A DNA stretch of 64,000 nucleotides from Hymenobacter edaphi (lineage in GTDB: Bacteria > Bacteroidota > Bacteroidia > Cytophagales > Hymenobacteraceae), in the NCBI RefSeq assembly GCF_003258365.1, contig NZ_QHKM01000002.1:372001-436000 (forward strand). The letters are read 5' to 3'. The notes beneath the pieces were generated by a model. It was given only the letters and a program-made list of their open reading frames with translations. It was not told where the DNA came from and made no database searches. Below are positions 55,385-58,485 of this stretch, in pieces. Each line of letters starts with the position of its first letter. Position 1 is the first letter of the stretch. The translations under genes and the position numbers were made by a program.

Positions 55385-58054
55385 TCAGCTTTTAATCTGC
55401 CGGGTGATGGTTTCGTCGGTGATTTTATCGTCGTCGGCCAGCAGCAGGGCTTTGCTCAGAATGATGCTCAGGATGGCGTCGCCCTCGAAGGGGAGAAACA
55501 CGTCGGTAGCGGCCGTTTGCTTGGGGCTGCGGTCGGGCACGATGCAGAGGTATTGGTCGTTGGGCTCCATCAGGATGTTGCCCGAGCCCATGTGAATCTT
55601 GTAGGTGCGCAGCTTGCCGCGCACCACCAGGAACTTGTCCTGCACCTCGCTGACTTTGCCGATTTTCAGGCGCGGCACCAGGCGCTGCAGCACCAGCTTG
55701 CGGTTTTTGGCCACTTCCGACAGCTCGCCGAACGAGTAGCTTTCCCAGTAGTTGCGGTACTGCACCAGCCCGCCGCCGTCGCGCCAGAGCGGGTCGTTGC
55801 CGACGGAGGCCACGCCCACGAACAAATCCACGTCGCGCATGACTTCCGAGAAAACCAGCGGCGGAATGTCGGTGAGCGGCAGCGCGTCGTCGCCGTCGAG
55901 GCGGGTGAAGCGCAGCTGGTCGGTGCTGACGTAGTGCCAGATGCCGGTGTCGTTCCAGGCGCCGTCGGCATTGACTTCGCTCACCCAGAACTCGGCCCGC
56001 AGGTCGGGCGCCGGCAAGCTGAGCCGGGCCGCGTCCGATTCGTAGCCCTTGTCGTAGGCGCCCATCAGCGAGTAGCGCCAGCCGCGCAGCTTGGCCAGGG
56101 AGTTGAACTGGTGCTGCTTCAGAACGTGGGCCGCCATGCGGTTGGAGTAGGTGCGGGTGCGCTCCTCCGGCGGCGTAAGCAGGTACACCTCGCGGAAGGC
56201 CTGCTTGAGCGGCTGCCGCAGCTCCCGGCGCTCCAGCAGCCCGCGCCAGGCCAGCACCTCGTCGGTGGCGGCCAGCACCGGGTGCCAGAGCTGCACCTGC
56301 GCCTCGTCGGCGGGCGTGGGCACGGGCTTTTCCTGGGCGTCGTGCCAGGCGCCGTTCAGCCAGAGGGCGTCCGTGTGGGTGCCATCGGCGTGGTAGAAGC
56401 GCCAGATCAGCCGCTCGGCCAGCTGGTTTACCAGGCCGTGCTCCAGGTAGTACTGCCGAAACCAGCGGTAGGGCATCCGGCGGCCTTCCACGAAGCTGCG
56501 GTCGAGCCGGTCGCGCTGGGTGGTGTAGGTCTGCTGAGCCTGGGTCTGGTCGGCTTTCAGCTCCTTCAGCTCCTCGGCGTGGCTTTGTTTCAGCGCTGCC
56601 GGAGCCGATTTCAGGGCCTTGTCGCCCTTGTGCCAGCTCACGTCGGCCTTGCCGTCCGCGAGCTGCAATACCACGTGGTAGTTGCCGTAGTCGTAGTCGG
56701 CGCGGCCGTTGGTGAGCCCCGCCGTGGGCACGGCCATGTCCTCGATTTCGGCCGGCGTGACGCCCAGCTTTTCCGCCCCCTTCTCGATGTAGCGGCCGAT
56801 CAGCTCCTGCGTATTGGCCTGCCGCACCTTGGGGCGCAGGCGCGAGAGTTGGGCCACGCCCGGCAGCCCGCCCTGCGAGAGGGCCAGCAGGCAGGCGTTG
56901 CCCAGCCCCACGGCCAGCGGCCCGCGGCCCGGAATCTTGCGGTAGCACTTCTCGGTGAGGGCGGCCAGGTGCAGCAGTACGGCCGTATCGGCTAGCGGGC
57001 CGAGCGTCCAGGCCAGGGCCTTGCCCACGTTCAGGCTGGGCTCCTGCAGAAAGTCCCACGACGAGTAGGTGTAGGTGCTGTCGTCGTTGTAGGTGTGCGT
57101 GTGCTGCCGCTCCTCCACCGGCAGCGCGGCCAGCAGCCGCAGCCACGCGTCGCCCTGCCGGCGCACCTCGTCGGGGCCGATGGCCGTGACGGCCGCGTCG
57201 ACCTCCTTCAGGTACTTGGCCGAAGGCTGACCGCCGCTGGCTTTCTGCCAGGTTTGCAGCAGCTGCAGCCAGGGCCGGGTGCGGGCGTCGGCGGGGGCCA
57301 GGCCGTCCACGAATTCGTTGAGCGCCTGACCCAGGGCGTCGCCGTCGGGGAAGCGCACGGTCGGTAGGCCGGCGTCATCCTTGGCGCCCAGCAGCTCCTG
57401 CAGCTTCACCCGAACCTTGACGGCGTTGCCGCTGCCGTAGCCGCTGGTCTGGTCCTCGGTGGCGGCCAGCACCTGGCTCAGGTAGGCGGTCAGCTGCTCG
57501 TCGGGGCCGTGCTTTTTCAGGTGCTTTTCCAGCTGGTTCAGCGTCAGCAGCACCGGCATGGTGCGCAGCGCGTCGCCGATGTCGCCCGGCTTCTTGAATT
57601 CCAGCCCGTAGAGCTGCAGCAGCCGCTGCCAGGCGGCGGGGCTCAGCTCCAGCGTGGAGCGCAGCAGCTGTTGCAGCAGGCCTTCGAGCATATAGCGAAT
57701 CTGGTAATCCACCTCGCCGTAATGGTCGCGGCAAAAGCGGATGGCCTCGGCCGCGGCCAGGGTCAGGCGGCCCTTGTAGGCCGCGTCCTGCTCCCGAATG
57801 CCCTGGGCGTAGGCCGGCACGTCCAGCAGCTTCAGGTTGTAGTAGCTCATATCACGCTCCTCGATGTCGAGCAGCAGCTGCCGGAGGACCGGCTGCATTT
57901 CCTGGGCTTCGGCGCTGCCGCCGTTCAGCGCTTTTGCAAACTGGCGGGCTTTCTTCTGAGTAGCGGGCATGGTGGCAGAATTAGGAGAAATATCGGCAAA
58001 CAGCCGGGCCGCGGCATCCTGCGCGCGTTGCCACAGCTCGGTCCAGGCACTCAT
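55385..58054 (-). CDS. DUF4132 (MolR-like) protein
   Basis: 889 residues, no signal peptide. The C-terminal half has DUF4132 features (RRMPYRWFRQYYLEHGLV, LAERLIWRFYHADGTHTDALW, WVSEVNADGAWNDTG). The end motif HMGSGNILMEPNDQYLCIVPD matches the domain that follows DUF4132 in many members. The N-terminal 450 residues are helical. E. coli MolR is the named relative, but its proposed molybdate role is unproven; other relatives occur with MoxR-type ATPases in putative conflict systems. Here the upstream partner is a small MoaD-like protein 11 bp away. Confidence 0.82.
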   Translation of the reverse strand: MSAWTELWQRAQDAAARLFADISPNSATMPATQKKARQFAKALNGGSAEAQEMQPVLRQLLLDIEERDMSYYNLKLLDVPAYAQGIREQDAAYKGRLTLAAAEAIRFCRDHYGEVDYQIRYMLEGLLQQLLRSTLELSPAAWQRLLQLYGLEFKKPGDIGDALRTMPVLLTLNQLEKHLKKHGPDEQLTAYLSQVLAATEDQTSGYGSGNAVKVRVKLQELLGAKDDAGLPTVRFPDGDALGQALNEFVDGLAPADARTRPWLQLLQTWQKASGGQPSAKYLKEVDAAVTAIGPDEVRRQGDAWLRLLAALPVEERQHTHTYNDDSTYTYSSWDFLQEPSLNVGKALAWTLGPLADTAVLLHLAALTEKCYRKIPGRGPLAVGLGNACLLALSQGGLPGVAQLSRLRPKVRQANTQELIGRYIEKGAEKLGVTPAEIEDMAVPTAGLTNGRADYDYGNYHVVLQLADGKADVSWHKGDKALKSAPAALKQSHAEELKELKADQTQAQQTYTTQRDRLDRSFVEGRRMPYRWFRQYYLEHGLVNQLAERLIWRFYHADGTHTDALWLNGAWHDAQEKPVPTPADEAQVQLWHPVLAATDEVLAWRGLLERRELRQPLKQAFREVYLLTPPEERTRTYSNRMAAHVLKQHQFNSLAKLRGWRYSLMGAYDKGYESDAARLSLPAPDLRAEFWVSEVNADGAWNDTGIWHYVSTDQLRFTRLDGDDALPLTDIPPLVFSEVMRDVDLFVGVASVGNDPLWRDGGGLVQYRNYWESYSFGELSEVAKNRKLVLQRLVPRLKIGKVSEVQDKFLVVRGKLRTYKIHMGSGNILMEPNDQYLCIVPDRSPKQTAATDVFLPFEGDAILSIILSKALLLADDDKITDETITRQIKS

Positions 58055-58065
58055 CGGGCGCCGAA

Positions 58066-58461
58066 TCAGCCGCCGACCAGCGGGGTGAGCTTCACGAAGC
58101 TGGCCGTGGCGCCGGGCCCCAGCCAGATCTGCTCGTCGAGGCTTTCCACTTGCCGGTCGTTCACCAGGATAAAGTAGCCGTTCTGCTGAAAGGCCTCCAG
58201 CGCCCGGTACAGCTGCTTTTCGGCGTCGATGCGGTGGTGCTTTTTCAGCCGGTAGCCGTTGAGCACCCGCTCCGAGTCGGTGGGCTGCACCAGGCCCGCA
58301 AAGACGTCGTCGTTGCGCTGGTTGTAGGCGGCCACTTCCTGGCGCACGCGCTGCTCGATCAGCTCGCGCGCGGTAATGGTTTCCTGGCTCAGCTCCAGCG
58401 CCAGGCGGTGCAGCACGGCCCCGGTGGCCGTTTCGTCCTGAATCAGCAGGGTAGTTGTCAT
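58066..58461 (-). CDS. Small protein with MoaD/ubiquitin-like C-terminal half ending Gly-Gly
   Basis: 131 residues. Residues 95-131 (FILVNDRQVESLDEQIWLGP, then FVKLTPLVGG) align by eye with the end of MoaD, which has a VNQ turn, a GD loop and the terminal PPVTGG. The N-terminus (MTTTLLIQDETATGAVL, ETITARELIEQRV) fits the first strands and helix of a beta-grasp fold; a charged helical insert (about 46-92) separates the halves. In MoaD, ThiS and ubiquitin the terminal Gly is adenylated and carries sulfur or a target. It precedes the DUF4132 gene by 11 bp, so the two are one operon. No adenylating enzyme is seen nearby. Confidence 0.75.
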   Translation of the reverse strand: MTTTLLIQDETATGAVLHRLALELSQETITARELIEQRVRQEVAAYNQRNDDVFAGLVQPTDSERVLNGYRLKKHHRIDAEKQLYRALEAFQQNGYFILVNDRQVESLDEQIWLGPGATASFVKLTPLVGG

Positions 58462-58470
58462 GGCGTGTTT

Positions 58471-58485
58471 GCTAAATTATTTAGC
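58471..58485. promoter_or_regulatory. Palindrome upstream of the GG-protein gene
   Basis: GCTAAATTATTTAGC is a 15-bp perfect dyad 9 bp before the start codon, in an AT-rich patch. It could be an operator; GCTATTTAGC recurs near 58534. Confidence 0.4.

Follow-up and report, generated by a model that had tools for sequence, protein, structure and literature searches.

A gene pair in Hymenobacter edaphi

We analyzed a pair of genes in a 64,000-nucleotide stretch of the Hymenobacter edaphi genome (contig NZ_QHKM01000002.1, positions 372,001–436,000; hereafter the window). One encodes a small protein with a predicted ubiquitin-like fold and a C-terminal Gly-Gly (GG), the other a large protein of the DUF4132 family. 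As the original prediction held from the sequence alone, the open reading frame (ORF) of the small protein (58066–58461, minus strand; 131 residues, C-terminus FVKLTPLVGG) lies 11 bp upstream of that of the large protein (55385–58054, minus strand; 889 residues, ATG start). The small protein was classified by its ORF, its sequence, an AlphaFold2 model and a structural match to 5mpo_A in VIA-align, and its partner by its ORF, a domain match and co-occurrence. The codons of the C-terminal tail, residues 125–131 (LTPLVGG), occupy 58069–58089 of the minus strand, with the two glycine codons at 58069–58074. An operator-like inverted repeat, TTGCTAA-N5-TTAG, was located by motif scan on the plus strand (58469–58484), 8–23 bases 5' of the start codon of the small gene.

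Two domains were recognized in the partner by profile matches, both far above their curated cut-offs of 27 bits: DUF4132 (PF13569; residues 479–659; 56078–56620, minus strand; E 4.6e-42, 144.4 bits), in agreement with the earlier assignment, and at the C-terminus DUF7737 (PF24879; residues 782–887; 55394–55711, minus strand; E 8.8e-40, 135.3 bits), which had not been named before and whose presence tracks the small protein. Within DUF7737 lies the codon of Cys837 (55544–55546, minus strand), the only well-conserved cysteine that alignments revealed in the partner; it accompanies the GG end of the small protein and not an alternative end, GxxW, described below. In front of both domains, the AlphaFold2 model forms a HEAT/ARM-like alpha-solenoid at about residues 37–435 (56750–57946, minus strand). 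In VIA-align the solenoid matched CAND1 and karyopherins (best Z 9.8, root-mean-square deviation (rmsd) 7.0 over 292 residues), which may reflect only a common arrangement of helical repeats; this search covered the helical N-terminal part and barely tested the DUF4132/DUF7737 half. Nothing usable was found for the partner among sequences of the PDB (best E 0.19; for the helical part, E 0.012 to ASA4).

Since homologues of 45–95% identity are encoded at 48 genome loci and the tail codons vary synonymously, the 131-residue ORF is a real gene: across 35 Hymenobacter genes each of the last seven codons varies in this way, and the encoded residues are all but fixed. The small protein had nothing above the cut-off in Pfam or NCBIfam and no match among PDB sequences, where a profile search gave an unusable best E of 0.3. 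PADLOC matched neither protein. As to a phage origin, neither protein was matched in INPHARED and none was confirmed in IMG/VR, in a search limited to close relatives.

Predicted fold and conserved end of the small protein

The AlphaFold2 model of the small protein, built with 28 aligned relatives, had a mean predicted local distance difference test (pLDDT) of 83.5 and a predicted template modelling score of 0.73. The chain runs through two strands, a short third one, a long helix, an insert with two helices, three further strands and the tail (strands 3–10 and 16–24, helix 31–48, strands 96–100, 111–113 and 119–124), and thus has the beta-beta-alpha-beta-beta topology of the grasp fold. The insert, residues 49–95, separates the first helix from the third core strand and is longer than the corresponding part of MoaD. 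From residue 125 on, the tail has no secondary structure, with a mean pLDDT of 76 at residues 121–130 and 40 at residue 131. In VIA-align the top match was human MOCS2A, the MoaD of molybdopterin synthase (5mpo_A; Z 9.2, rmsd 2.7, 78 aligned residues). The list was dominated by ubiquitin-like folds, with ubiquitin, NEDD8, SUMO and ISG15 ranking behind MOCS2A, and archaeal SAMP1 (3po0) scored Z 7.6 (rmsd 3.0, 81 aligned), in a range of Z 7–8 where scores are common. Foldseek returned nothing under E 0.001 (best 2.2e-3), and most of its 50 rows were ubiquitin folds. Matches to the MoaD/ThiS family (PF02597) did not reach significance; noise-level ThiS matches occurred in 3 of the 28 members (best E 0.18). 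The small protein is thus predicted to have a MoaD/ubiquitin-like beta-grasp fold, as had been read from its sequence, with a free tail after residue 124.

We compared the ends of 73 distinct homologues, comprising those of the 48 loci, the window protein, two of genome G039, one of G272, five from distant Bacteroidia, four from Deinococcus, one each from Bacteroides, Nonomuraea and Novosphingobium, and nine further ones from Planctomycetota. The 73 come from six phyla (Bacteroidota, Planctomycetota, Deinococcota, Actinomycetota, Cyanobacteriota and Pseudomonadota), and GG ends 65 of them, so this end is not due to chance. Even very divergent homologues keep it, as in Deinococcus (LAGG) and in two Planctomycetota loci (L119, LVGG; L120, VAGG). 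The eight without GG are a Hymenobacter copy ending in GV (L032), a truncated one (L041), and six proteins from Bacteroidia that end in [AST]G-x-[YL]-W (hereafter GxxW). The original prediction had taken a non-conserved GG as evidence against its reading; the end is conserved across the family, and in one branch, that of the six GxxW members, it is not. This branch is informative, since there the partner's cysteine is absent together with GG. Among 30 rows, GxxW rows left out, the tail (residues 125–131) was the least variable of seven segments, with a mean entropy of 0.68 bits against 1.49–2.23 for the six others.

Pairing with DUF4132 proteins

The small protein is sporadically distributed, occurring in 32 of 150 Hymenobacteraceae, 8 of 296 Bacteroidota and 10 of 144 Planctomycetota genomes. 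In the first two samples, which share two carrier genomes, DUF4132 was found in exactly the same 32 and the same 8 genomes, so the co-occurrence that had been suggested as a check was complete; a ninth DUF4132 match among the 296 scored under the cut-off and was a fragment interrupted by stops. At 45 of the 48 loci a long ORF lies 3' of the small gene at a distance of −61 to +182 bp, the exceptions being L021 (at a contig end), L057 and L058, and a DUF4132 core was found at 46 loci (not at L021 and L058). In Bacterioplanes (L057) the partner lies upstream of the small gene, linkage being kept despite the changed gene order, and in genome G251 (L097) it lies upstream with one gene in between. 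No fusion of the small protein to a partner was found among the matches listed, whose open frames had 131–204 residues, and no other constant neighbour was seen by eye in 13 non-Hymenobacter loci and 8 further stretches. The pairing of the small protein with DUF4132 is near-obligate.

The pair might in principle be an ordinary MoaD/ThiS paralogue for molybdopterin or thiamine synthesis that stands beside a DUF4132 gene by chance. The MoaD-like fold, the GG end and the weak ThiS matches would fit this, as would the name MolR once given to YehI, the DUF4132 protein of Escherichia coli. Those matches are far below significance, however, the partner is a DUF4132 protein in all six phyla, and on reading the loci we came across no moa or thi gene, in line with what had been remarked for the window. 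Since the genome sets of the two genes are identical in two samples, we consider a chance neighbour of this kind very unlikely.

Departures from the simple arrangement were also observed. In genome G039, transposase-like ORFs (DDE_3) stand between the small gene and a still-open downstream DUF4132 gene at one locus (L104:7029-8200), and at another the partner is apparently split into 264 and 629 residues (L103:4317-7013). Partners are likewise split or cut in Lyngbya (L048:10390-12966; 684 and 156 residues) and Hymenobacter fodinae (L043:10384-11757; first ORF 457 residues); these look like frameshifts, decay or assembly errors. Three DUF4132 genes lie near one small gene in Hymenobacter sp. 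H14-R3 (L038), whose genome (G024) has five DUF4132 matches and two small genes, and Nonomuraea gerenzanensis (NZ_LT559118.1) has three partner-like places, one of them adjoining a small gene. A pair with a GxLW-type end lies on a Bacteroides finegoldii plasmid (L077:852-3033), where a rhomboid protease gene ends 8 bp upstream, possibly by chance.

DUF7737 distinguishes the paired DUF4132 proteins

DUF4132 proteins also occur without this small gene beside them, as in E. coli (yehI) and Iodobacter, where ATPase, DUF5682 and VWA genes accompany them, and in Burkholderia and Acetobacter. In the first three, profile matches stop short of DUF7737, and a direct search for DUF7737 found none in E. 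coli, the sole control genome with DUF4132. E. coli YehK and the products of the small genes that precede DUF4132 in Acetobacter and Burkholderia were considered as relatives of the small protein and rejected, showing no resemblance by eye.

The 144 Planctomycetota genomes allowed a direct comparison. DUF4132 was found in 18 of them, DUF7737 over the cut-off in 10, and the small protein in 10; DUF7737 and the small protein occur together in 9. Eight of the nine genomes with DUF4132 and without the small protein lacked a DUF7737 match over the cut-off, among them G540 with a weak match. In the tenth DUF7737 genome, G510, the partner ORF begins at base 70 of its contig, so that the upstream gene would lie off the contig. 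The direct DUF7737 search was used throughout this comparison; two loci were not used as evidence, L105 (G519), which had no profile match, probably through a wrong reading frame, and L110, which the end of its stretch may cut. Among Planctomycetota genomes with DUF4132, the small protein is restricted to those whose DUF4132 protein bears DUF7737, and it is mostly this domain that appears to separate paired from unpaired DUF4132 proteins. The tenth Planctomycetota small protein stands outside this pattern: it is a divergent orphan ending in VAGG (G533, L122:1834-2424), in a genome without any DUF4132 match.

Cys837 tracks the GG end

At 73 loci, the end of the small protein was set against the residue that the partner has at the position of Cys837 in the window protein. 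At the GG loci this residue is cysteine in 62 out of 62 readable cases, two more being unreadable, while at the six GxxW loci it is serine (4), asparagine (1) or alanine (1) and never cysteine. To place this difference among other changes in the protein, 72 partner cores (window residues 400–889) were aligned, of which six were GxxW partners, one was that of G510 and 65 were neither. Thirty-seven columns were at least 97% identical in the 65 cores, and 30 of these were identical in all six GxxW cores as well; only W551 and C837 were absent from all six. W551 was discarded as a second co-lost position, being missing also in L124, which has GG and the cysteine, and C837 alone therefore tracks GG. 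No other cysteine column exceeds 50% in the core, and none but C837 reaches 90% in a 19-row alignment of full-length partners; the one row that lacks it, L048, is the split gene, in which the cysteine is present in the second ORF. On the side of the small protein, conservation across the 30 non-GxxW rows extends to nine columns, of which G131 alone is changed in all five GxxW rows aligned. That a single residue has changed jointly on each side is, on these alignments, the strongest point for a covalent link between the two proteins.

In a tree of the 72 partners (IQ-TREE, midpoint root), the six GxxW partners form one branch (support 99/90). Beside it stand Deinococcus (GG, Cys; a long partner) and G510, with support of 100/99 for all three, G510 itself being placed weakly (93/73) beside Deinococcus; G554 (GG, Cys) falls outside this group and inside the long-partner clade. 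L124 and other long branches make finer detail of the tree unsafe to read. The simplest reading would be that GG and Cys are ancestral and went together on the GxxW branch.

Operators of the DNA-damage type in two phyla

The pair DR_A0165/DR_A0166 of Deinococcus radiodurans is homologous to that of the window. DR_A0165 ends in LAGG and matches the window protein with 31.5% identity at 76% coverage (tblastn E 1e-4). Directly downstream, DR_A0166 encodes a DUF4132 protein with a DUF7737-type end, 1626 residues long against 889 in H. edaphi. Directly upstream lies trxC, which adjoins the pair only there among the four Deinococcus regions shown; the published gene order DR_A0164–A0166 (PMC9650054) matches this record. 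Two publications, each drawn on here in part, differ on the control of the pair. According to PMC8533742, a radiation/desiccation response motif (RDRM) lies at −83 before DRA0165, the drA0165–drA0166 operon is strongly up on DdrO depletion, and DRA0166 protein is raised after mitomycin C. PMC9650054 describes DR_A0165 as SEP068184, a Deinococcus-specific, cytoplasmic protein without an RDRM. We located the published RDRM exactly, at −82 by our own count (L070, upstream of 4962). In three other Deinococcus we found its 15-base core, at −91 and −92, and a weaker site, at −72. The sites in four Deinococcus thus support PMC8533742 over PMC9650054 on this point.

In Hymenobacter, the repeat TTGCTAA-N5-TTAG occurs no more than 120 bp before the small gene at 14 of 36 loci, the window included, and has only 3 matches elsewhere in 750 kb. 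Of these 3, a couple lie together just before umuD-like (Peptidase_S24) and umuC-like (IMS) genes at L024, and these genes are directly 5' of the small gene of that locus in Hymenobacter jeongseonensis (L024:7900-9751). In another locus of this strain (L040:8883-9770), the small gene directly follows a Peptidase_S24 gene. The Deinococcus RDRM and a Hymenobacter operator shared with a umuDC-like operon together indicate damage-type control in two phyla by different operators.

A possible mechanism

We tentatively propose, as a possible and favored reading, that the two genes form a damage-regulated ubiquitin-like module, in which the small protein would be activated in trans by an E1 enzyme, carried as a thioester on Cys837, and used for transfer or switching in the DNA-damage response. 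This proposal starts from what the analysis established: the predicted fold, the conserved tail, the pairing, the link to DUF7737, the way in which GG and Cys837 occur or are missing together, and the operators. The process would comprise several steps. A free beta-grasp protein of the MoaD/SAMP type is translated with a ready-made C-terminal Gly-Gly. Its terminal glycine would be adenylated by a housekeeping E1 of the MoeB/ThiF type encoded elsewhere, and the small protein would then be transferred onto Cys837 of the partner's DUF7737 end, through a thioester or another acyl-sulfur bond. The DUF4132 protein, with its HEAT-like solenoid in front, would be the receiver or transfer protein, similar to an E2 or E3 in role and not in sequence; it might hand the small protein on, or might itself be switched by it.

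An E1 is encoded in all but one of the carrier genomes searched. PF00899 matches were found in 130 of the 150 Hymenobacteraceae genomes, including all 32 carriers (in the window genome, E1 lies on contig C11 and the pair on C21), and in 19 of the 20 carriers of a second list, in which G463 is probably the same genome as G369 of the family list. The exception, G251, is a complete single-contig genome whose small protein ends in SGAYW. These occurrences agree with a scheme in which GG members would use a housekeeping E1 and GxxW members would need none.

Several observations weigh against the proposed module. 98 of the 118 Hymenobacteraceae non-carriers have an E1, as do G078, G150, G162 and G338, four out of five GxxW genomes that were searched, so its presence alone is no predictor of GG. 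The original prediction had looked to an E1/MoeB-like gene linked to homologs; among the matches listed for the 32 family carriers and 7 further carriers no position-comparable PF00899 match was near the pair, the nearest lying 69 kb away on the same contig (G428), and in the 13 remaining carriers none was seen on reading the stretches around the pair, one doubtful frame being checked. E2 or JAB genes beside the pair were likewise not seen by eye in the loci read, no family search for them being made. GG and Cys changed jointly in a single event on the tree, which counts as one phylogenetic observation, and there may have been a further loss of the cysteine: the G510 partner has valine at 837, and its small gene, if there is one, lies off the contig (the order of G510 offered 3 genomes for testing this type). 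Two Hymenobacter copies have lost GG while the partner kept Cys837, namely the one ending in GV (L032:9992-10390) and the one with a stop after 102 residues (L041:9992-10300), possibly through decay of the small gene. The partner model is poor near residue 837, residues 839–858 being below pLDDT 50, and no catalytic site is visible. In Acetobacter the end of the DUF4132 protein resembles DUF7737 and its gene has no small gene of this type as a neighbor, and 22 of the 36 Hymenobacter loci lack TTGCTAA-N5-TTAG in the form searched. As published, deletion of DR_A0165 raised total antioxidant capacity, catalase activity and katA mRNA, and DR_A0165 pulls down Trx1, which is binding and not conjugation (PMC9650054). 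Finally, the GxxW branch and the E1-less G251 indicate that the pair can do without this chemistry; since that branch lacks both residues, and one of its genomes any E1, a noncovalent role exists as well.

The persistence of the partnership in the GxxW branch, where the chemistry is gone, is, as far as sequences can tell, the strongest point for a noncovalent alternative. In it the small protein would be a regulatory subunit whose tail docks in a groove of the DUF7737 end lined by residue 837, either as a fixed subunit or as a damage-induced switch, with GG and GxYW as two docking tails. The pairing holds in both tail classes and the partners of both carry DUF7737. The extra residues of the GxxW end are conserved, with tryptophan last in 6 of 6, unlike a throw-away propeptide, and G251 and the failure to find a linked E1 point the same way. 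An unmodified carboxyl end, however, leaves the joint keeping of the second glycine and one cysteine from Deinococcus to Streptomyces unexplained. Nor does the nearly isosteric replacement of Cys by Ser (4 of 6) open space for a longer tail with a final Trp. We regard the noncovalent subunit as somewhat unlikely.

A third explanation shares the chemistry of activation and differs in its product. The small protein would be a sulfur carrier, bearing a C-terminal thiocarboxylate made by a MoeB-type E1 in trans, from which sulfur would pass via a persulfide or acyl-disulfide at Cys837 to DUF4132 or to a tRNA or cofactor target. MoaD and SAMP1 are among the closest folds, the open frames that hold the strongest E1 matches mostly have about 360–440 residues, which would suit MoeB with an added domain, and in D. 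radiodurans trxC adjoins the pair and Trx1 binds DR_A0165 (PMC9650054). Against this, the trxC neighbor is confined to one of four Deinococcus regions, no recurring cofactor, thiamine or tRNA-thiolation gene was noticed beside the pair on reading the loci, and a sporadic distribution with damage-type control is unlike a housekeeping pathway. A sulfur carrier seems to us quite unlikely.

The favored module can be extended to the whole family, which makes for a more doubtful claim: proteins with DUF4132 and DUF7737 may be new cysteine-bearing ubiquitin-like transfer proteins, without sequence kinship to known E2 or E3 enzymes, that form, with the GG protein, a DNA-damage-induced tagging system in six phyla, the GxYW branch having turned noncovalent through joint loss of the Gly and the Cys.

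Relation to known systems

The small protein shares with the MoaD/ThiS carriers (PF02597) the beta-grasp fold, the free C-terminal Gly-Gly and a small stand-alone size, and differs from them in having no significant sequence match and a different constant partner. Archaeal SAMPs and TtuB of Thermus (the latter mentioned in PMC8832034) are GG-ended beta-grasp proteins that serve both as sulfur carriers and in conjugation and share one E1 between these roles. In contrast to them, the window-type protein has a dedicated large partner with one conserved cysteine, and its gene is preceded by damage-type operators. The E1-E2-JAB operons of bacteria include Bil and type II CBASS. Operons of this kind resemble the pair in having a ubiquitin-like protein with a conserved terminal glycine in a small operon (Genome Biol 2006 R60, as far as drawn on here). 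Unlike those operons, the pair has no linked E1, E2 or JAB gene and no PADLOC match, within the searches and readings given above.

The closest described case is SEP068184/DR_A0165 itself, which ends in GG, is homologous to the window protein and is followed directly by a DUF4132 gene whose end is of the DUF7737 type. Its authors noted similarity to the structures 5MPO (MoaD-type) and 3PO0 (SAMP1) (PMC9650054). In the parts of PMC9650054 and PMC8533742 covered here, DR_A0165 is connected neither with the function of its DUF4132 neighbor nor with a reactive GG end nor with other phyla. Among the literature matches listed, covering titles and openings of abstracts with subscription papers and preprints outside the scope, none joined a ubiquitin-like protein to DUF4132. 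The remark of the original prediction that it knew of no described system of this kind thus stands, within the literature covered, for the two genes together and not for the small protein, whose D. radiodurans homologue had been published alone. We rate a GG-ended beta-grasp carrier or modifier as a known kind of protein, and DUF4132 as its constant partner as new.

What is known of ubiquitin-like tagging in bacteria comes mainly from E1/E2/JAB operons and from modifiers that also act as sulfur carriers. The pair described here has no linked enzymes, and its GG protein goes with a single large protein annotated without function, apparently via one cysteine; damage-type operators accompany the pair both in radiation-resistant Deinococcus and in Hymenobacter. 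If the link is covalent, it would be a new arrangement of ubiquitin-like chemistry and a way in which bacteria modify proteins under stress. Either way, DUF4132/DUF7737 gains a testable role and an "orphan" Deinococcus peptide is united with a six-phylum family. G131 and C837 are the two residues whose mutation would decide between the models.

Operons of the YehI/MolR type share the DUF4132 domain with the pair and have neither a DUF7737 match nor a ubiquitin-like gene beside them; MolR has been described as LexA-regulated (PMC8533742). A separate association was observed at two loci (L078 and L080), where DUF4132 without DUF7737 is found in operons with MoxR-type ATPase, DUF5682 and VWA genes.

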